Origin: a virus
Length of the DNA: 33,962 bases
Direction: 5' to 3' (one strand)
IMG/VR virus record: IMGVR_UViG_3300032053_000277
Coordinates: 1-33,962 of that record
Shown: positions 3,870 to 19,659 of the stretch, piece after piece
Layout of the letters: every line of letters starts with the position of its first letter
Position numbering within the stretch: position 1 is the stretch's first letter
Notes under the pieces: model-generated
Databases searched by the model: none
What the model saw: the letters and a program-made list of their open reading frames with translations, nothing else
What the model was told of the DNA's origin: nothing
Program-made: the position numbers and the translations under genes

Positions 3870-6800
3870 ATGAGCAAGATAAAGCGGATAGTCAGATACA
3901 AGCCGCCTGCCAAGAAGACAATTATTCCCGTCACCATAGAAAACAAGGCAGTCGCAGTCAAGCCGATATTGGATGAGAACACGCGAAGGTTTCTTGGGTT
4001 TGAGAAGGGCATCGGGAAGTTCCCGGCCGACCTGACATTCTTCCAATCGCTGAGGATGAGGATGTCCGGCGAGAATGTTATCGAGCCATATCGCCAGCAC
4101 GTCTGGGTGCATGTCGCCGTCAACACCATTGCCCAAAGTATAGCGTCCATCCCGTTCAAACTGGCGAGGGGCGAGGTCAAGAGCCCGAAAATCATAGAGA
4201 GCGGGCCGATATACAATCTCTTTATGAATCCCAATCCACACATGAGCCGACACCAGTTGTGGGAGGCGACGATGATTTACCTGGAACTGGAAGGCGAGTG
4301 CATGTGGCTTCTTGAGAGGCCGAAGGGTGCCGAGAATAAGTATAACATCCTACCGACCGAGATATGGCCGGTAAGCGGTAAGAATTTCAATCCGGTAATA
4401 GAAAATAACGTGTTTGTCGGGTGGAAATACCAGCCGATGGGAAGCGCCAAGGAGGAATACCTTACCCTCGCCCAGGTGATACAGTTCAAGTATTTCAACC
4501 CATACAACTACTACCGGGGACTGTCCCCGATAAGCGCCGCGAAGATGAGCATCGACCAGGACTGGAACGCGGCGAAATACAATCTCGCCTTCTTTGAGAA
4601 CTCGGCCGACCCGGGCGGGGTGCTAACCTACAAGGGCAATACCGGTCTCAATGACGACCAGCGGAAGGCAATCCGCGAGGGGTGGGAGGACAGGCACAAA
4701 GGTCCGAAGAACACCAGAAGGGTGGCACTGCTTGAGGGCGGGATGGAATACCAGCAGACGCAAGTGAGCCATACCGACATGCTTTTCCTTGAGGGCAGGA
4801 AATACAACCGGGACGAGATTTTCGCCATATACAAACTGCCCAAGTTTGAAGATTTGAACTTTGCTACGGCGAAGGTAAACGAGAGGTCATTCTGGCAGAA
4901 GACGCTCATCCCGAAGACGAACTACCTGATGGACATTCTTGAGGCAAAGGTATTCAAGTTCATAGAGGGTGGGGAGGTATGGGGATATTTCGACACGAGC
5001 GTGATTGAGGCGCTCCAAGAGGACTTCAATGCCAAGGTGGAGACTGGATACAAACTGTGGCAGATGGGATATCCCATAAACAAGGTGAACAAGCGTCTTG
5101 AGATGAACCTTGAGCCGGTGCCATGGGGGGACGAGATATTTGTGCCGTTCTCAATGACGCCGATAACATCACTGATGGGCGGGGAAGGCAAGCCACCAGA
5201 GGAGACCACGCCGCCCGCACCCGTGCAGGAGTCGGCAAGGAAATTACTACCTGCCAAGTCAACTCTCAAGATGGACAGGGACAAATACTGGAATGGGTAT
5301 GTGAAGATGATACTCGACCCGAATGAAAAGAAGTTTCAGAGCAAGATAAAACGGTATGTCTTTGAACTGAGGTCAGAGCAGTTAAAGAGACTGGAGAGTG
5401 GGAAGACGGCCGAACAGCGGACTGCTGTCACTAAACTTGACTCGTTTGAACTTGACCAGGTCCTGTTCGCACAGCAGGAGTGGGACAAGAAACTGAAGGC
5501 GCTTACCCGTCCCCTCTACGAGACGATAATGACGATGGCGGGCGAGCAACTATCCGAAGAGATGGGCGGACTGTTCCAGTTCAACCTCACCGACCCGAAG
5601 ATGCTGGCATTCCTTAATGAAAAACTAATAAAAGTGACTGACATAAACGATACGATAAGGGGCAACCTCAGGGAATCGTTGATGGAGGGCATAAATGCCA
5701 AGGAGACGATAGGGGAACTGCAGGACAGGGTGAGGACGGTATTCAACTTTACCTCTAACCGTTCGCTGACCATAGCGAGGACGGAGACGGCCCAGACCGC
5801 ATCGGGGACGAGGTTCCTGGTGATGAAACAGGAGGGGGTGGAATACCAGGAATGGCTCAGTGCGAGGGATGAACTGGTAAGGACGACCCCGTATAATCAT
5901 GCCATTGACGGTGAGGTTGTGGCGGTTGGCGACAGGTTCTCAAACGGACTGAGGTATGCGTCTGATGTAGATGGTGCGCCGGGGAACGTGATTAATTGTT
6001 TTATAGAGGGAAGAACTAAGGTATTTACTGACAAAGGATTTAAGAGTATAGCCCATATAAAAAGTGGGGACTCGGTTTTGACCCATAATGGTAGATTCAA
6101 GAATGTAACCAGGATATTCAAAGGAAGATTAAAAATTGGTTCGGAAGTAGTGAGAATAATATTACCAAAACGGCATGGTCGTTGCAGAAAAGGTGTGATA
6201 ACCACTACTCCTGAACATAGATTTTTAACTCAACGGGGATGGGTTGAGGCGAAAGATTTGATGCAGACTGATAAGTTAATGATAATGGCTGGATTCTGTG
6301 GACATTGCGGAAAGAAGATTCCTTATTACAGGAAGTTCTGCTCAAAACTTTGTTGGAGTAGAAAAACAGTCACAGAACAATGGAAAAACCCGAAGCACAG
6401 GGAAATCATTAGCCAAAAAGCATCAATCCAACTAAAAAAGGAATATGCCAACGGCACGAGAGACAGGAATGAGATAACGAAGGTGGCGAGAAAGAAGTGC
6501 TTTGAAATATACGGTGACGGTGGATATCTGAAATATGACCCGTCGGTTCACGAGAAAGGCAAGCAAGCAATCATAAGTAAATACGGTTCCACATTGAACA
6601 TGCTTAAGCAGAAAGCATTTTCGGCGCTTGGTAAGGCGGGGTGGTATGGTTCATCTCTTGATAGGGCGATGCAGAGATTTCTTGATAATAACGGACGCAA
6701 ATATATCCAACAACACTGGGTGGGAAGGAGGCGGGTGGATTTTTATTTGCCGGACGAGAAGATGTTTATTGAATGCGATAGTCAAGCCTATCATAATGAT

Positions 6801-7103
6801 GCACAAAAAGAGAGAAGGAGAGACTTGGAAATTCTACTGCAACATCCTGACCACCAAATGGCACATTGCAACTACGGTGGGAAAAAGCCGAGGTGGGAAT
6901 TCTTTGACCTGAAAGCATTGAATCATTCGGGAACTTATGAGTTCACCGAGATTGACATAAAGAAAATAGAGAAATACCAGATAAGGAAAACGATGCCATT
7001 GTATAACTTTGCGGTTCAGGATGATGAATCATATCTGGTTTATGGAATTGTTAGTCATAATTGTAGATGTCTTTGCACATTTTCACGGGCGCCCAAGGAA
7101 TAA
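3870..7103 (+). CDS. Portal protein fused to MuF-type minor head protein, interrupted by an intein
   Basis: The 1077-aa frame minus a 355-aa intein gives a 722-aa protein. Residues about 45-425 are an HK97-type portal, the dodecameric DNA channel at the capsid vertex, with typical segments HVWVHVAVNTIAQSIASIPF and the AKYNLAFFENSADPGGVL region. A Pro-rich linker follows (about 440-460). The C-terminal third is a MuF-like domain with ARTETAQTASG, HAIDGEV and a terminal N|CRC motif that the intein splits exactly. Portal and MuF proteins are usually separate, although fusions are known. ATG 3870 has no clear Shine-Dalgarno (upstream GGTCACGAA) and lies right after a strong terminator, so its expression probably depends on read-through or an unusual initiation. 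Confidence 0.92.
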   Translation: MSKIKRIVRYKPPAKKTIIPVTIENKAVAVKPILDENTRRFLGFEKGIGKFPADLTFFQSLRMRMSGENVIEPYRQHVWVHVAVNTIAQSIASIPFKLARGEVKSPKIIESGPIYNLFMNPNPHMSRHQLWEATMIYLELEGECMWLLERPKGAENKYNILPTEIWPVSGKNFNPVIENNVFVGWKYQPMGSAKEEYLTLAQVIQFKYFNPYNYYRGLSPISAAKMSIDQDWNAAKYNLAFFENSADPGGVLTYKGNTGLNDDQRKAIREGWEDRHKGPKNTRRVALLEGGMEYQQTQVSHTDMLFLEGRKYNRDEIFAIYKLPKFEDLNFATAKVNERSFWQKTLIPKTNYLMDILEAKVFKFIEGGEVWGYFDTSVIEALQEDFNAKVETGYKLWQMGYPINKVNKRLEMNLEPVPWGDEIFVPFSMTPITSLMGGEGKPPEETTPPAPVQESARKLLPAKSTLKMDRDKYWNGYVKMILDPNEKKFQSKIKRYVFELRSEQLKRLESGKTAEQRTAVTKLDSFELDQVLFAQQEWDKKLKALTRPLYETIMTMAGEQLSEEMGGLFQFNLTDPKMLAFLNEKLIKVTDINDTIRGNLRESLMEGINAKETIGELQDRVRTVFNFTSNRSLTIARTETAQTASGTRFLVMKQEGVEYQEWLSARDELVRTTPYNHAIDGEVVAVGDRFSNGLRYASDVDGAPGNVINCFIEGRTKVFTDKGFKSIAHIKSGDSVLTHNGRFKNVTRIFKGRLKIGSEVVRIILPKRHGRCRKGVITTTPEHRFLTQRGWVEAKDLMQTDKLMIMAGFCGHCGKKIPYYRKFCSKLCWSRKTVTEQWKNPKHREIISQKASIQLKKEYANGTRDRNEITKVARKKCFEIYGDGGYLKYDPSVHEKGKQAIISKYGSTLNMLKQKAFSALGKAGWYGSSLDRAMQRFLDNNGRKYIQQHWVGRRRVDFYLPDEKMFIECDSQAYHNDAQKERRRDLEILLQHPDHQMAHCNYGGKKPRWEFFDLKALNHSGTYEFTEIDIKKIEKYQIRKTMPLYNFAVQDDESYLVYGIVSHNCRCLCTFSRAPKE
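5997..7061 (+). mobile_element. Intein with zinc ribbon and Vsr-like (EDxHD) nuclease in the portal-MuF gene
   Basis: A 355-aa intein running from Cys710 (CFIEGRTKVFTDKGFKSI, block A) to Asn1064 (GIVSHN), followed by extein Cys1065. Block B is TTTPEHRFL (TxxH). The nuclease insert is not LAGLIDADG. It has a four-Cys zinc ribbon (C810-x2-C813-x10-C824-x3-C828), a basic helical linker, and a Vsr/DUF559-like core (about residues 929-990) with VDFYLP (Asp957), IECD (Glu968, Asp970) and His975. This arrangement matches the EDxHD homing endonuclease class described in phage inteins and introns. Insertion lies exactly before the conserved CRC of the MuF motif. Splice residues look intact. Confidence 0.9.
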
Positions 7104-7121: not shown

Positions 7122-7865
7122 ATGGAATTAACGAGAAAGGTAATGAACTTTGATGTGAAGGCGGTTGAGGGAAATGACAACGTCCTCGAATTCACCGGCT
7201 CGGACGAGACGGTGGACAGGGCGGGCGACATAATGACACTGGAGGGATGGGACCTGGAATCATACCTAAAGAACCCGGTCTTCATGCTATTCCACGACTA
7301 TCGCTCCCTACCGGTTGGCAAGGCGATTGAGGTGGTGAAGGATATGACGGCCAAGAAACTGAGGTTCAAGATAGAGTTTCCCACCGAGGACGTCTACCCG
7401 CTGGGACAGACGGTCAAGAAACTATACCAGAACAAGTTTCTCAACGCGACATCGGTCGGCTTTGTTCCGAAGAAGTGGGAGGCAAGGACGGACGAGTCAG
7501 GGAAGGAGGCCGTGGGAAGGAAATACCTTGAGCAGGAACTTCTTGAACTGTCGGCCGTCCCGGTGCCGTGCAATCCCAATGCCCTGATGGAGTCCTGTGG
7601 TAAGGGAATATTCACGGCTGACGAGTGCGTCAAGATGGAGGAGAGCGAGATAATCTCAAGGGAAACACTAACGGGCATACTGGAAAAACTCGGTGTCAGT
7701 GTCGTGATTAAGAACGCAGAAAATAAAATATGGGAGGACGACCCGGACTGGACTGAGATAAGATATCGGGTAAGGAATCCCGACCTGTTCGTAAGTAATA
7801 GTTTTAGGCGTAAGAAAATGCCTGGTATTAATATCTATATGATACTGGGAAAACTTAAAGGTTAA
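7122..7865 (+). CDS. Prohead maturation protease, N-terminal (catalytic) fragment
   Basis: HK97-type (U35) capsid maturation protease that trims scaffold/capsid N-termini inside the procapsid. The catalytic His is H58 (MLFHDYRSLPVG) and the Ser is S111 (NATSVGFVPKKWE); VDRAGDIM and LLELSAVPVPCNPNA are other family segments. After the protease domain (about residues 1-165), a C-terminal region (WTEIRYRVRNPDLF, SFRRKK, MILGKLKG) matches a domain that usually continues into an IQSLRFPK-AEHP segment. Here the frame stops at TAA 7863-7865 and that continuation is found at 8616. The gene is therefore split by the endonuclease gene at 7870. Ribosome site AAGGAGG lies at 7110-7116. The catalytic part looks intact. 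Confidence 0.88.
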   Translation: MELTRKVMNFDVKAVEGNDNVLEFTGSDETVDRAGDIMTLEGWDLESYLKNPVFMLFHDYRSLPVGKAIEVVKDMTAKKLRFKIEFPTEDVYPLGQTVKKLYQNKFLNATSVGFVPKKWEARTDESGKEAVGRKYLEQELLELSAVPVPCNPNALMESCGKGIFTADECVKMEESEIISRETLTGILEKLGVSVVIKNAENKIWEDDPDWTEIRYRVRNPDLFVSNSFRRKKMPGINIYMILGKLKG

Positions 7866-7869
7866 TAAT

Positions 7870-8619
7870 ATGCCAAAAGACAAAGAAAACTCATTTTATA
7901 GTAAAAAACTTTCCGAAGAACACAAAAAGAAAATAGGTCTTGCTCATAAGAGTTATATGAAAAGATTAGGACTTACCTTCAAAGGGAAAGAAAATCCATT
8001 TTATGGAAAACATCATACCGAAGAAACCAAGAAAAAAATGAGTTTAGCAAAAACAGGCAAAAGACTTTCTAAGGAACATATTGAAAAATGTGCTCAAGGA
8101 CATAGGGGCTTAAAATATCCGCCTAAAAGCGAAGAGGCAAGACTTAAAATAGGCATAAAATCAAAAGGTCATAAGATGCCAGATGTAACCAGAAAGGCAT
8201 TGTTAAAATCCCGTTTAGGTATACCACTATCAGCAGAACACAGAGAGATAATGAAAAAGATAATGTTAGGCAATAAACATGGGCAAAAACCCAAAGGATA
8301 TGAATATAAAACTCCTATTATGAAAAATATAAGAAATTCTATTAGGAATCAACAATGGAGACAGAATATTTTTATTAGAGACAATTTTACTTGTCAAAAG
8401 TGTAGAATAAAAAGCGGATGCGGTCATAAAGTTAGTTTTGAAGCACATCATATTACATCTTTCAAAAGTCTATTAGAAGAAGCCAAAAAATATATGCCAT
8501 TATTCTCTCTTTATGAAGCCGCAATGTTATATTCCCCGTTATGGGATATTAATAATGGTATAACTCTTTGTGATAAATGTCATGATTTAACCAGAATGGT
8601 TAAGAAGGAGAAATTATGA
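7870..8619 (+). CDS. NUMOD3/HNH homing endonuclease splitting the protease gene
   Basis: A 249-aa protein with several NUMOD3 DNA-binding repeats in the N-terminal two thirds (KLSEEHKKKIGLAHKS, TEETKKKMSLAKTGK, SEEARLKIGIKSKG, SAEHREIM), each a S/T-x-E-x4-K-I/M type helix. The C-terminal HNH domain has C175-x2-C178, AHHI (H193, H194) and a final NNGITLCDKCHDL. The gene is strikingly A+T-rich against its G+C-richer neighbours. It begins 4 nt after the stop of the protease fragment and ends in ATGA overlap with the next fragment (8616-8619). It therefore fills the whole insertion and leaves no room for a group I ribozyme. It is probably a free-standing homing nuclease that spreads by cutting uninterrupted protease genes. 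Confidence 0.92.
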   Translation: MPKDKENSFYSKKLSEEHKKKIGLAHKSYMKRLGLTFKGKENPFYGKHHTEETKKKMSLAKTGKRLSKEHIEKCAQGHRGLKYPPKSEEARLKIGIKSKGHKMPDVTRKALLKSRLGIPLSAEHREIMKKIMLGNKHGQKPKGYEYKTPIMKNIRNSIRNQQWRQNIFIRDNFTCQKCRIKSGCGHKVSFEAHHITSFKSLLEEAKKYMPLFSLYEAAMLYSPLWDINNGITLCDKCHDLTRMVKKEKL

Positions 8620-9152
8620 GCGAAGAAAAAAAAGATGAAGGATATTTTATCCAGTCCCTCCGTTTTCCTAAGCCCGAATGGAATCTTGAGAAGGCGAAGA
8701 AGTGGGTGGCAGAGCATCCGGACATCGGCAAGTCCTTTGATGACAAGTTACCGGAAGTCGGTTATCTTGACGATAAAGGAAATGTTATAAAACTGGAATG
8801 GATTGACTGCGATGCCGAGGGCAATCCCATCAAGCAAGATGATAATAACAAGGTAAAAGTTGAAGTGGCAACCGAGTCTGAAGGATTGAAGGAAATGATT
8901 GTCCAGATTCTTAATAGCATTGAACACGTATCGGTCGAACAGAAGATGATTCTGGAAGAAGTAAAATCAATCGGGCTAATGAAGGATGTTATCAAGGAAA
9001 TACTGGCGAGACTGTCCACCAAGGATGCGGGGGATGTCGTTCCCGTGGCCGATTCCGGCGACAAGCCAAAAGATGAGGCCTCAGGCGGGAAGGGCGTGTT
9101 TTCCGTCATTCTTGACATGGGGAGCAAAACCAGCAAGAACCTTGAGAAATAG
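8616..9152 (+). CDS. C-terminal fragment of the split protease gene, re-initiated
   Basis: A 178-aa protein whose first 40 residues (GYFIQSLRFPKPEWNLEKAK, then KWVAEHPDIGKS) are the expected continuation of the protease C-terminal region that stops at 7865. It has its own start in ATGA overlap with the HNH gene and a ribosome site (AAGGAG, 8606-8611). The remainder is acidic and coiled-coil-like (about residues 75-135), ending in a Gly/Lys-rich tail. That region could act as an internal scaffold, as scaffold-like segments fused to HK97-type proteases do. The fragment is in the same reading frame as the upstream fragment. Whether the two halves associate is unknown. Confidence 0.75.
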   Translation: MSEEKKDEGYFIQSLRFPKPEWNLEKAKKWVAEHPDIGKSFDDKLPEVGYLDDKGNVIKLEWIDCDAEGNPIKQDDNNKVKVEVATESEGLKEMIVQILNSIEHVSVEQKMILEEVKSIGLMKDVIKEILARLSTKDAGDVVPVADSGDKPKDEASGGKGVFSVILDMGSKTSKNLEK

Positions 9153-15031: not shown

Positions 15032-15982
15032 ATGGAAACAGTGGTAAGTCCGAGGTCAAAGCCAATCCTCAAGCATAGGGGGAGGAAGAAGGAAATCCTC
15101 ATCATGCGCCGGCAGGGCGGGATAGGGGATATCCTCAACAGCCGGATGATGTTTGAGGACATAAAGAAGTCTTATCCGGACAAGGGACTGGTCTATGCTG
15201 TGCCGGAGGAGTTCATTCCGTTGGTGTCCGACCACCCGTTCATAGACAAGGTGCTTGACTGGGAGCATATTAGCACCATGGGATGGTATATATTCGCCGA
15301 CATAACAAACAGGTGTGGTGAATACGAGCACCGGCACATGCCGAATGTTGACAAGCACCGGAGCGACATCTGGGCGGAAAGTGCCGGGATAAAACTGACT
15401 AACCATAATATGCACATATCGTTCAATGACGGTGAGATTGAGTTTGCGAAAGGCATCCTTGAGGGGATAACAAAACCGATTGTCACCATACAGCCGGTCT
15501 CGGCCCACCCGTCCAAGGACTGGCCAATGGATAGGTGGCAGGAAGTGGTAGATATCATAAGCAAAAATTATGGTTTTAGCATAATATGTTTCCATAATAA
15601 GGAATTACCAATCAAGAATGTCATAATGATGGGTGGAAATGTCAACCTGCGCGAGTGGATGGCGATAACAAGCCAGTGCGACCATGTCATCACGGTGGCG
15701 ACGTCAATGTATTGTCTTGCCAATGGACTGCATAAGCCGACCGTGGCGATATTCGGGTGCGAGGACTTGGACATATACGGCAGGTATTTTCCCGAAATGG
15801 TTCCGGTGCAGAGGCACAGGAAGAACAGTGACGGGTGGGGCGACTGCCCCTGCTGGCAGGCGTGGAAGGGATGCAGAAAAAATGACAACAAACCCGTCTA
15901 TCCGCCGCCATGCTTAAGTAGCATCACTGTTGACGAGGTGATGAAAGGGTTTGACAGATGCGTAAAGATGAGCCAAAAATAA
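15032..15982 (+). CDS. Glycosyltransferase family 9 (heptosyltransferase-like)
   Basis: A 316-aa GT-B enzyme predicted to transfer a sugar from a nucleotide donor to a growing glycan. The N-terminal Rossmann start is ILIMRRQGGIGDIL, with the GGxGD loop typical of ADP-heptose:LPS heptosyltransferases. The second domain begins PIVTIQPVSAHPSKDWPMDR and contains ITVATSMYCLANGLHKPTV, the donor-binding region. The C-terminus has CPCW..GC..C cysteines, as in other phage and bacterial GT9 members. Ribosome site AGGGAGATAG. It opens a five-gene cassette with short overlaps, inserted between connector-type genes and the tail terminator. The acceptor cannot be inferred from sequence. Confidence 0.8.
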   Translation: METVVSPRSKPILKHRGRKKEILIMRRQGGIGDILNSRMMFEDIKKSYPDKGLVYAVPEEFIPLVSDHPFIDKVLDWEHISTMGWYIFADITNRCGEYEHRHMPNVDKHRSDIWAESAGIKLTNHNMHISFNDGEIEFAKGILEGITKPIVTIQPVSAHPSKDWPMDRWQEVVDIISKNYGFSIICFHNKELPIKNVIMMGGNVNLREWMAITSQCDHVITVATSMYCLANGLHKPTVAIFGCEDLDIYGRYFPEMVPVQRHRKNSDGWGDCPCWQAWKGCRKNDNKPVYPPPCLSSITVDEVMKGFDRCVKMSQK

Positions 15983-16638
15983 AAAGAATATCCTCGGACT
16001 ATTATAATGAGAGGTATTTTACGGACAACTGGTATGACAATAACTCGTTTGCTTTGGACAATTTATTTCATAGAGAGATTGCGGAACTGTTCGTTGACAT
16101 TATGAAACCTCTTAAATACGACTCGGTGCTGTCAATAGGGTGCGCCCTTGGCAATGTTATTTACTGGCTGACCAAGATGGGATATGACGGGCACGGGATT
16201 GACATCTCGGAGTATGCGGTGAACCATACCCATATTCCGGGCAGGGTTACGCAGGGCGATGTGATAGATGGACTGCCCTACAAGGATGGCATGTTTGATT
16301 ACGTCTTCTCAAGGGACACGCTGGAGCATATAGCGGAGGAGCATATCCCGAAGGTGATAGCCGAGATGGAAAGGGTGTTGAGGGTGGACGGCGGGATGTT
16401 ACTGATGCCCGCGAACAACTTCAACGACAAGGAGGTCAAGAAGCAACTGAACTGCGCCGGCCCGAACCACGAGGATGGGAGCCACCTATGCGTCAAGTCG
16501 CCATACTGGTGGGCCGAGATGATGGAAAAGCATGGCAAGAAACTGGTGGTCGACTACAAGCGGACGCTCTATGGGATGGCTAATCAGATGGCGGAGAAAA
16601 ATTCGTGGACGGCATTGGTGGTGAGGAAGACGATATGA
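15958..16638 (+). CDS. Class I SAM-dependent methyltransferase (glycan/small-molecule type)
   Basis: A 226-aa methyltransferase overlapping the GT9 gene by 25 nt. Motif I is VLSIGCALGNVIYWL, the acidic end of strand 2 is GHGIDISEYAV, motif II/III is GDVIDGLPYKDGMFDYVFSR, and DTLEHI is the post-II helix. These match UbiE/Coq5-like and sugar-O-methyltransferase enzymes. No DPPY or NPPY DNA-methylase motif and no PC motif are seen, so DNA methylation is unlikely. Its place between two glycosyltransferases points to methylation of a sugar or of a sugar-carrying product. The ending overlaps the next gene by ATGA. Confidence 0.8.
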   Translation: MRKDEPKIKRISSDYYNERYFTDNWYDNNSFALDNLFHREIAELFVDIMKPLKYDSVLSIGCALGNVIYWLTKMGYDGHGIDISEYAVNHTHIPGRVTQGDVIDGLPYKDGMFDYVFSRDTLEHIAEEHIPKVIAEMERVLRVDGGMLLMPANNFNDKEVKKQLNCAGPNHEDGSHLCVKSPYWWAEMMEKHGKKLVVDYKRTLYGMANQMAEKNSWTALVVRKTI

Positions 16639-17744
16639 ACTCATATAAAATTATGAATTCTATTGATAAATGGAAAGATATGGCAGAAGCAATCAACTTT
16701 AAGGTCTATTTATATTATGGTGGTGGCTTGGGAGATTTAGTTCACCGCTTATATGATAGTTATTATTTACGGGCATTAAGACATATAAAGAAAGTTTTCC
16801 CCAATCTTAAAATTAATTTATTTATTGATACATCAAGAAGTATTGAATCAGCACGGGCATTATTTGAGACTAATCCTTATATTGATGAGATATATATTCA
16901 GAAACAAGATTTTACAAATCAAGATATTTACGCCTTTATGTCAAACTTACTCGGAGAGAGAAAGAATAATATCGGGATGTTTTTTCCTGAAATGGATAAT
17001 GAGATTGTGTTTCAAAGGGTGATTAATAGAATATATGTTTTATTATCTTTTCCGAGAATACGGGCGATTTCTATGGATAGTTTTTTTCAACAAATGAATC
17101 TTCAGATAAACGACTTCGATTCAGACGAGCCGAAGATATACCTGAAGCCGGACGAGAGGGAATATGGTGAGAAGATAATAAGGGGCTTGAGGGCGGACGG
17201 AAGCAAGGTTGTGGCAGTCCACTTCTTCTCGGGGCAGGAGACTAAGATGGTTAGCCCACAGGCGGCCAAGGAGATAATCGGTTGGCTGGTCACAAAGGGA
17301 TACAAGGTAATCATAATGGGAACAGGAAAAGAATCTAACCCTGAATCATACAATGGGGATGCAAGGGATATGGTATTAGTCCTAAGGAGTTACATAGGAT
17401 ATAAAAATATTACCTACTTATGCGACGACTCAGGCATAAGGAATAAGATTTCTATCATTGCCAACAGCGACTATATGGTGTGCAACGACAGTGGACTGAT
17501 GCACGTGGCGTGGTTCTACAAGGTCAAGACGGTATCATTATTGAGTCCCGATACTTTTGACCGATTCCAGAAGAGGGGTGGATATTACTGGGCGATAACG
17601 GATGGGATGCCGAACACGAGTTACATCCTTTTTGACAGGGGCAATAGGATGGTTGACGCGGAACTGGTCGGGAAGAGAATGGGGTGCTTGGATGAAAAAG
17701 AAAAGGAAAAGGCGGCCAAGAAGGACAAGGAAGCAAAGGGATAA
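16635..17744 (+). CDS. Second GT9-like glycosyltransferase, composition-mosaic
   Basis: A 369-aa GT-B protein. I chose ATG 16635 in ATGA overlap with the methyltransferase; an upstream in-frame ATG at 16605 has no better support. The N-terminal LYYGGGLGDLVHRLYDSYYL resembles the GT9 GGxGD loop. The C-terminal domain begins KVVAVHFFSGQETKMVSP, with KVIIMGTGKE and YMVCNDSGLMHVAWFYKVKT, the donor-binding DSG..H pattern of heptosyltransferases. The first about 155 codons (to about 17100) are clearly A+T-rich, after which the DNA returns to the G+C-richer style of the neighbours, suggesting a recombined N-terminal acceptor domain. The C-terminus is a Lys/Glu-rich tail. Confidence 0.75.
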   Translation: MNSYKIMNSIDKWKDMAEAINFKVYLYYGGGLGDLVHRLYDSYYLRALRHIKKVFPNLKINLFIDTSRSIESARALFETNPYIDEIYIQKQDFTNQDIYAFMSNLLGERKNNIGMFFPEMDNEIVFQRVINRIYVLLSFPRIRAISMDSFFQQMNLQINDFDSDEPKIYLKPDEREYGEKIIRGLRADGSKVVAVHFFSGQETKMVSPQAAKEIIGWLVTKGYKVIIMGTGKESNPESYNGDARDMVLVLRSYIGYKNITYLCDDSGIRNKISIIANSDYMVCNDSGLMHVAWFYKVKTVSLLSPDTFDRFQKRGGYYWAITDGMPNTSYILFDRGNRMVDAELVGKRMGCLDEKEKEKAAKKDKEAKG

Positions 17745-17820
17745 TGGACGGAACTACAAGGATGAGAAGCCGGAGTATACGGAGTGGCCGTCACTAAGGC
17801 CGATGGGAACGGATAGGTGA
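17692..17820 (+). CDS. Candidate small, very basic overlapping protein (42 aa)
   Basis: An ATG frame that starts inside the 3' end of the GT9-like gene in another frame and ends 4 nt before the next start. The first half is almost all Lys/Arg, the second half (EKPEYTEWPSLRPMGTDR) looks like ordinary protein sequence. The basic half may simply be the shadow of the Lys-rich tail it overlaps. The ribosome site is poor. It fills the 80-nt gap before 17825, which is the only reason to take it seriously. Confidence 0.3.
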   Translation: MKKKRKRRPRRTRKQRDNGRNYKDEKPEYTEWPSLRPMGTDR

Positions 17821-17824
17821 AACT

Positions 17825-18892
17825 ATGAAAAAATTCCTGATGATTCACGATATAAGCCAGAAGGAACTGGACGGCAACGATACCAACCTGATAAACAACT
17901 TCACCAACTGGGTGAGGTGCTTCACGGACTGGCGGAATACCACCGAGGTCGGAAGATGGGTTGATATGACACCACAGAAGTGCCAGGACTTTGAGTATGT
18001 GATGCTCCTGCTCATGACCGACCAGCGGGACGAAAAACTGAACAAGTTTCTTGAGATAGTTACTTACTCACAAAGGACTTATAAGACGATTATATATGTG
18101 GACGGCGTGGTCGGGTGGCAGATGAATCCGTTCTCTATCCAGAACAAGAAAAAGTATATGGACATGGTGAGCGCCTCGGACTACATCTTCCACTATGGCC
18201 TGCCGGAGAGCGAGGGATACTGGAAGGTGATAACGAGGGGCAGGGAGTCGCACAACATAGACCGCCCCCATCCGGTAGACTTTGCCAAGAAGTCGTTTGA
18301 CATAGAGCATCCGGTGGCAATAGAATACATCAAGCAGTTCGCCCTGAAAGACAGGAAAGAAATCATAGCGGTTGGCAAGTCGCTTAAGAACATCAACGAG
18401 GAGCGGAATGCCATATCATCCCTGTATGTGGCGGGGCAGTTGCAGAAGAAGACGGGCTGGCCGATAATAACCTTCGCAAATAATCCCCTGCCCGATAACG
18501 AGAAGAAGGCATATTACAAGGACCTGTGCGACATAGATGAAATCATAGAGATACCCGTTATGCGGTGGAACGACTACATCAAGATACTGGCACTGTGCAG
18601 GATAGGGATACACTTGGATTGCCTTGAGACGCGGGGTCAGGTTCCTCTTGACCACGCCTGCCTCAGAGTTCCGATGGTGTGTGCCGGCTCAGTGGCGGGA
18701 CAGAAGTTATTTCCTTATACATGGCTTAACCACTGCCGGGACATTGACAAGGCGCTGAAGATGGCATTTAAGTTAGTGGATGACAACAAGTTCAGGGACA
18801 AGGTGGTAGATTACGCCTATGACAAGGCGGAGGAATACTCGTTTGACAACACGAGGGCAAAACTTGAGAAGATACTGGGGGTGAAAATATGA
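17825..18892 (+). CDS. Putative GT-B glycosyltransferase (GT4-like)
   Basis: A 355-aa protein with ribosome site TAGGTGAAAC. The C-terminal half has the arrangement of GT4-like enzymes: KEIIAVGKSLKNINEERNAI (start of the second domain), then IITFANNPLPD, IIEIPVMRWNDYIKILALCR and IGIHLDCLETRGQVPLDHA, where the Glu of the ETRGQVPL-type segment would contact the donor. The N-terminal Rossmann half (FEYVMLLLMTDQRDEKLNKF, IIYVDGVVGW) is divergent. It is followed by an ATGA overlap with the next methyltransferase. The substrate is unknown; the context says glycan assembly. Confidence 0.65.
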   Translation: MKKFLMIHDISQKELDGNDTNLINNFTNWVRCFTDWRNTTEVGRWVDMTPQKCQDFEYVMLLLMTDQRDEKLNKFLEIVTYSQRTYKTIIYVDGVVGWQMNPFSIQNKKKYMDMVSASDYIFHYGLPESEGYWKVITRGRESHNIDRPHPVDFAKKSFDIEHPVAIEYIKQFALKDRKEIIAVGKSLKNINEERNAISSLYVAGQLQKKTGWPIITFANNPLPDNEKKAYYKDLCDIDEIIEIPVMRWNDYIKILALCRIGIHLDCLETRGQVPLDHACLRVPMVCAGSVAGQKLFPYTWLNHCRDIDKALKMAFKLVDDNKFRDKVVDYAYDKAEEYSFDNTRAKLEKILGVKI

Positions 18893-19659
18893 AATATAAT
18901 TCCGTTTTTTACGAATCCGATTTGATTGAGTTAAAAGAGCCGGTGGAGGAAATTACGACTCTCAGGAATAAACTTGTTATTGACCAGGGGATGAATATGC
19001 CCTGGAGTGTTACGCGCCCGTGGGAATATGCTAAGTTAATTAAGGCAAGCCAACCATTGATTCATCACGGTTCTGTTCTTGATATAGGTTCAGCCAATAG
19101 CGTCCTGCCGTTCTACTTCAACGACCGAGACTGCATGGTGCAGGCCTGCGACATAGAGATGCCCTCGGCGAAGGAATTGGATTACTATAAGAGATGCGCC
19201 ATAGGATACAAGCGGGCTGATATACTGAACCTGCCCTACAAGAAGGAGACCTTTGACTATGTTTTCTCGGTGTGCGTCCTTGAGCATATCTACCCGTTCA
19301 AGGATGATGATGATATTGTCAGGGAGACGATAAGGGCGTTCAGGAAGATAGCGAGGGTGCTGAAGCCGAACGGACTGACTGCCCACTCCTGTGATTTCTA
19401 TGTTAAGGACTTCAACACGTTCAGGACATACCATAGGGAACTACTTTCAAGGATAATACTGGGGTTGGTCGGGACATTCGTCCCGGTTGACGAGCCGGAC
19501 TACTCGATAGCCGACCCGGTCAAGTATTATATTGAGAACAACACCATCTATGGCAAGCCGGAGGAGAGGGAGGAGAAGCATCTTAAATATTTAAGGGAAG
19601 GCAAGGCGCCGGAGAACCTGTTCACCTGCGCCTCGCTGGTATTAAGGAAGGTGGAATAA
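18889..19659 (+). CDS. Second class I SAM-dependent methyltransferase
   Basis: A 256-aa protein starting in ATGA overlap with the glycosyltransferase. SAM motif I is VLDIGSANSVLPFYF, the strand 2 acid is in VQACDIEM, and ADILNLPYKKETFDYVFSVC then VLEHI form motifs II and III. The N-terminal extension (about residues 1-50) and the C-terminal region (HSCDFYVKDFNTFRTYHREL) resemble sugar or lipid methyltransferases. The first about 190 nt are A+T-rich relative to the rest, so this gene may also be mosaic. It closes the cassette; tail genes resume one nucleotide after its stop. Confidence 0.8.
   Translation: MKYNSVFYESDLIELKEPVEEITTLRNKLVIDQGMNMPWSVTRPWEYAKLIKASQPLIHHGSVLDIGSANSVLPFYFNDRDCMVQACDIEMPSAKELDYYKRCAIGYKRADILNLPYKKETFDYVFSVCVLEHIYPFKDDDDIVRETIRAFRKIARVLKPNGLTAHSCDFYVKDFNTFRTYHRELLSRIILGLVGTFVPVDEPDYSIADPVKYYIENNTIYGKPEEREEKHLKYLREGKAPENLFTCASLVLRKVE

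Follow-up and report, generated by a model that had tools for sequence, protein, structure and literature searches.

Vsr-type homing enzymes are known from phage introns (PMC11878797, PMC12350094, PMC3943268), and Vsr-type endonucleases of phrog_559, given as VSR endonucleases, are carried by terminase introns in the Bastillevirinae (PMC11878797). Inteins have been reported in the portal and terminase proteins of mycobacteriophages, and for the terminase intein both splicing and cleavage of intein-free alleles have been demonstrated (PMC5050341). EDxHD enzymes are unmentioned in that paper, and a 2020 review of inteins names four homing-enzyme families, the Vsr type not among them (PMC7765530). 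An intein in a Mu-like F protein was described in 2004, in the gpF of a Methylococcus capsulatus prophage; its nearest relative was an archaeal IF-2 intein, and no recognisable endonuclease was reported (PMC517821). MuF inteins, Vsr-type homing enzymes of introns and inteins of packaging genes are all already known, then, and what seems to be little described is a family of Vsr-type elements in MuF. Our literature search, which did not extend to the founding papers, returned no paper combining 'intein' and 'MuF' and no description of a Vsr-type intein in a MuF protein; priority is uncertain. Vsr-type homing enzymes were reportedly first described by Dassa in 2009.

The window, by which we mean the whole stretch of viral DNA analysed here, is 33,962 bases long, the length of the virus record. 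On its plus strand, to which the coordinates of this gene and its parts refer, an open reading frame at 3870..7103 runs uninterrupted over its whole length and encodes a 1077-aa precursor, a portal-MuF fusion interrupted by an intein. Pfam finds Phage_portal at residues 80–400 (1e-58) and Phage_Mu_F at residues 595–710 (1.7e-7), and the N-extein (3870..5996) comprises the portal domain (80–400) and the MuF domain (595–709). The 355-aa intein occupies 5997..7061, from Cys1 to His354-Asn355: the codon of Cys710 begins at nucleotide 5997 and that of Asn1064 ends at nucleotide 7061, followed by Cys1065-Arg-Cys. The C-extein, CRCLCTFSRAPKE and a stop codon, takes up 7062..7103, with Cys1065 as the +1 nucleophile and the same junction present in an intein-free relative (L268, below). 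The window has a single splice end directly before CRC and none of 100 shuffles has any, so that chance does not account for it. Like the M. capsulatus element, this is an intein in a MuF protein, the likeness being at the protein level, and its best NCBIfam match is also an IF-2 model; unlike that element, it carries a recognisable nuclease. The mycobacteriophage inteins are likewise in phage packaging proteins, at other sites of other host proteins (PMC5050341).

The intein is recognised by PF14890, PT-HINT and TIGR01443, with the Intein_splicing match of Pfam covering residues 743–1064 (2.5e-7) and the intein_Cterm score of NCBIfam above its own cut-off. The residue set of a class 1 intein is complete (Cys1, Thr71-x-x-His74, His354-Asn355 and Cys+1). 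In an alignment of 22 sequences (alignment A1), T71 and H74 of the N-terminal splicing half (5997..6281) are invariant and C1 nearly so, while H354 and N355 are invariant in the C-terminal half, which spans 6942..7061, matches TIGR01443 and ends YNFAVQDDESYLVYGIVSHN. A model of the whole intein built from the 22 sequences has a mean pLDDT of 84, and its splicing halves superpose on the Mtu RecA intein (2imz) with a Z score of 17.8 and 1.9 Å over 135 residues, as for a HINT fold. The first-pass annotation had read Cys710 and HN1064|Cys1065 as intact splice residues and had placed the insertion directly before the CRC of a portal-fused MuF domain; residues, profiles, the predicted HINT fold and the empty allele described below all bear out the first claim, and the passage from Asn1064 to Cys1065-Arg-Cys the second. 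That the insertion does not splice, and simply inactivates the MuF domain in frame, is very improbable given the full set of splicing residues, the excellent predicted HINT fold and the presence of the remaining head operon (protease and capsid).

Judging from sequence and modelled structure, we put at about 0.8 the probability that a tailed phage here carries, in its portal-MuF gene, a mobile class 1 intein that spreads by homing. The precursor would fold with its HINT domain and splice itself through Cys1, Asn355 and Cys+1, leaving the 722-aa portal-MuF protein intact and setting free the intein of 355 aa. A four-Cys ribbon and a helical arm would guide the free intein to its target DNA, the Vsr/EDxHD-type nuclease would cut intein-free MuF genes near ...GTGATTAAT/TGTAGATGT..., and the element would spread when the break is repaired from the copy that has the intein.

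The most direct evidence for mobility is the intein-free form of the same gene. A search with the N-extein identified two contigs, L262 and L268, whose protein sequences are 94% and 98% identical, respectively, to that of the window; both are from metagenome 3300032053, and they may or may not come from one genome. L268 reads GNVINCRCLC without a break, CRC following directly on VIN. When 5997–7061 (1065 nt) is removed from the window, a gap-free alignment of 1037 nt with L268 results, in which 37 positions differ (96.4% identity); the insertion is therefore precise, preserves the reading frame and is missing from a close relative. The intein-free L268 allele suggests that the window's intein is a recent arrival, and a near-identical phage without the intein, taken together with the dozens of related copies that other phages carry at this position, argues for a real mobile element. 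Window and L268 also constitute a natural matched pair for testing splicing and cleavage. Homing nucleases can in principle put unprotected co-infecting phages at a disadvantage, and the finding of a near-identical intein-free phage in nature would suit a nuclease that serves mainly in competition between phages, cutting co-infecting intein-free relatives, with its spread secondary. The data do not distinguish this from ordinary homing, the two readings are not exclusive, and we consider competition improbable as the main role.

Between the splicing halves lie three parts. The four-Cys ribbon (6297..6353; Cys101, Cys104, Cys115 and Cys119) is defined by conservation, C101, C104 and C115 being invariant and C119 nearly so in alignment A1, and by weak Pfam matches to treble-clef and zinc-ribbon domains; its cysteines stand where the initial reading had put them, ahead of the nuclease. 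It leads into a helical arm, a probable DNA-binding region (6345..6632; helices 117–212 in the predicted model), and ribbon and arm together match phrog_3339, 'homing endonuclease', at 7e-8. The nuclease domain itself is at 6636..6938 (Asp222, Asp248, Glu259, Asp261, His266 and Arg275), an assignment resting on profile, fold and residues. Taken alone, the window's domain matches Pfam weakly (MTES_1575 5e-4, DUF559 0.015). Across the family the signal is clearer: DUF559 is matched by 21 of 22 members (best 4.5e-15), MTES_1575 likewise, and Vsr by 11 of the 22 (best 5e-7). A profile of 48 inserts finds the DUF559 protein 3hrl at 6e-13, I-Bth0305I (PDB 3r3p) at 8e-11 and Vsr (1cw0) at 0.0025, and all 48 aligned inserts match phrog_559. 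That PHROG family is labelled HNH endonuclease, yet it matches every one of these Vsr-type inserts. Pfam gives no match to LAGLIDADG in the MuF intein, although the phage's other intein, in terminase, does match it (8e-16), and none to HNH, in keeping with the first-pass annotation.

As fold searches with the whole intein list only HINT structures, the insert was modelled separately. The model (pLDDT 89) superposes on I-Bth0305I (3r3p_A) with a moderate Z score of 9.2, 2.7 Å over 79 of 97 residues, and on Vsr with 8.7. Two mitoribosomal chains rank slightly above 3r3p and Holliday junction resolvases below it, as expected for one nuclease superfold. A Foldseek search of the PDB with the insert model gave no match under 0.001, and the fold claim is based on the sequence profile and VIA-align. 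Among homing enzymes with solved structures the EDxHD prototype I-Bth0305I is the nearest, and on profile and modelled structure the nuclease is a homologue of it within the Vsr/DUF559/EDxHD group. Structure prediction of the intein and a profile search against Vsr/DUF559 families had been proposed earlier as checks, and both agree with the original reading, in the HINT fold and the I-Bth0305I-like insert on the one hand and in the 3hrl, 3r3p and Vsr matches on the other. The motifs VDFYLP, IECD and a later YH are likewise where they had been noticed. I-Bth0305I, other EDxHD enzymes and the phrog_559 nucleases share the homologous domain and likewise lie inside self-splicing elements of phage genes (PMC11878797). 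The I-Bth0305I and phrog_559 enzymes are found in introns, whereas the window's enzyme is in an intein; compared with I-Bth0305I and EDxHD enzymes it also has Asp for the first Glu, and its arm starts with the four-Cys ribbon.

The active site supports the EDxHD assignment for the group more fully than for this copy. Asp248, Glu259, Asp261 and His266 are invariant in 57 aligned sequences, Asp248 and His266 being the central Asp and His of the EDxHD active site, and Arg275 is present in 56, the remaining one having a gap. At intein position 222, the aligned counterpart of the first 3r3p Glu, 49 of the 57 sequences (the window being counted) have Glu, four have Gln (L078, L184, L187, L192) and four have Asp (the window, L130, L133 and L194). 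The stretch after His266, the region of the last EDxHD Asp, is variable among relatives and reads KERRRD in the window. Most of the family thus has EDxHD in its strict form, and this copy a modified one: the class named by the first-pass annotation stands by profile and fold, and the window lacks the Glu from which EDxHD takes its first letter. Because the first catalytic acid is Asp, cutting by the window's copy is something that we infer. The substitution could mean that splicing is intact while the nuclease is dead or dying, the element being kept since its imprecise removal would kill an essential head gene, and frequent nuclease loss elsewhere in the family (deletions in L058, L102, L042, L017, L197 and L202) would agree with such a course. 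We regard this as unlikely, since the reading frame and all other conserved nuclease residues are intact and the existence of an intein-free allele in L268 suggests recent acquisition. Moreover, Asp222 seems to be tolerated, as it is shared by L130, L133 and L194, and the insert of the L133/L194 pair has a dN/dS of 0.18.

The MuF insertion site had been thought rarely documented, an expectation that did not hold. Single-sequence searches with the window's intein found no relative in viral contigs, no full-length match among phages and weak matches in the PDB; relatives surfaced only through a pattern joining the splice end to CRC. A scan of viral contigs at the DNA level for Tyr-x3-Gly-x3-His-Asn|Cys-Arg-Cys and close codon variants, with intein starts located by a local HMM, yielded at least 120 loci with an intein ending exactly before CRC. 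Among the 120 matches listed, 31 end like the window's intein (..DESY..), 88 are of another type (GHVYNLQT..) and one is neither. Isolates carry such inteins as well. The MuF inteins of Gordonia phages Barsten and Nordenberg occupy the window's site (VIN|C...HN|CRC), and Vibrio phage 1.266.O has one at an equivalent site (HN|CRS) of a head-region protein; the annotations of these phages contain no product called intein. They match the window in the splicing part only (25–43% of the query), and no Vsr-type nuclease was found in them. Comparison of insertion sites, together with the 2004 report of a Mu-like F intein, thus identifies the MuF site, at the sequence level, as a common intein target and not a rare one.

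The second intein type at this site (GHVYNLQT...WYVANGIITHN) is represented by L012, L024, L043 and about 85 further loci among the matches listed; it is often about 300–350 aa long, with no recognised nuclease. An EDFHGDG-like motif lies within the insert of many of these inteins, and an HGD-like motif is found in 67 loci, all types together, among the matches listed.

A profile search independent of CRC gave 110 relatives, of which 80 loci were kept, representing 58 distinct inteins. The nuclease motif is present in 50 of the 58, and 47 end before a Cys-Arg/Asn-Cys/Ser triplet; Phage_Mu_F is matched by 57 of 66 host segments. Four inteins (L143, L160, L184, L197) are inserted two residues further on, before the second Cys, and three (L168, L175, L198) ahead of the last Cys-rich stretch in a MuF-like protein that Pfam does not place in Phage_Mu_F. 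The MuF gene of L197 holds two inteins, the C-terminal end of another lying ~30 residues upstream of the Vsr-type remnant. Fusion to portal seems common among relatives, as the N-extein has at least 450 residues in 17 of 58. A scan of bacterial and archaeal genomes contributed one true relative, L203 from a Bacteroidota MAG, with the same CRC site and the nuclease present; its other matches were mostly different inteins, many at VEG|C...HN|C[TS]AP in an unrelated host protein and without the nuclease motif.

Among 72 distinct family members, 54 have the Vsr-type nuclease, four have HNH and 14 have lost the nuclease by deletion or decay, surviving as mini-inteins or remnants (L058, L197 and L202 among them). 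The four HNH forms (L036, L199, L200, L201) are of the ribbon-bearing intein type, with HNH replacing the Vsr-type nuclease in what amounts to a nuclease swap. The splice-domain tree requires 14 changes of nuclease state, at least six of them forced by well-supported branches. Intein and host identity are weakly correlated (Spearman 0.31), and L199 and L201 have splicing parts that are 79% alike in MuF hosts that are 25% alike; intein kinship is thus partly independent of host kinship. The searches gave no further window-like intein of high identity, and selection was measured in other relatives, where an insert dN/dS of 0.09–0.18 in four close pairs demonstrates, as far as substitution rates go, purifying selection on the nuclease. 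These values and the uncoupled kinship fit a homing cycle. The window's splicing domain groups near HNH-bearing inteins (support 85), yet the insert most like its own is that of L018 (59%), which may hint at module exchange.

A broader proposal is that phage MuF proteins host a large intein family whose usual homing enzyme would be a four-Cys ribbon with a Vsr/EDxHD nuclease, not LAGLIDADG or HNH, and which would move between unrelated phages, insert at two or more neighbouring sites in the Cys-rich MuF end and include all stages of the homing cycle. We hold the odds on this proposal to be even. If this is so, no large class of EDxHD inteins would have been documented in nature before the MuF inteins; the mini-inteins and nuclease-swapped members of the family also offer material for work on the gain and loss of intein mobility.

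The window contains other elements. Its terminase large subunit (186–2837) has a second intein at about 1089–2162, with LAGLIDADG_3 (8e-16), that is absent from the related contig L262. At 7122–9152, a NUMOD3+HNH gene (7870–8619) splits the prohead protease into two frames, giving 247 aa, the HNH gene and 178 aa in place of the single 419-aa gene of L268. Immediately to the right of the HNH insert the sequence has diverged strongly (56% over the first 50 bases), a pattern that co-conversion with a different donor would leave. A group I intron or other RNA was considered, and the window gave no Rfam match at gathering score. Between the head and tail genes, 15032–19659 encodes two family 9 glycosyltransferases and a methyltransferase, an unusual cargo for the structural region of a phage.
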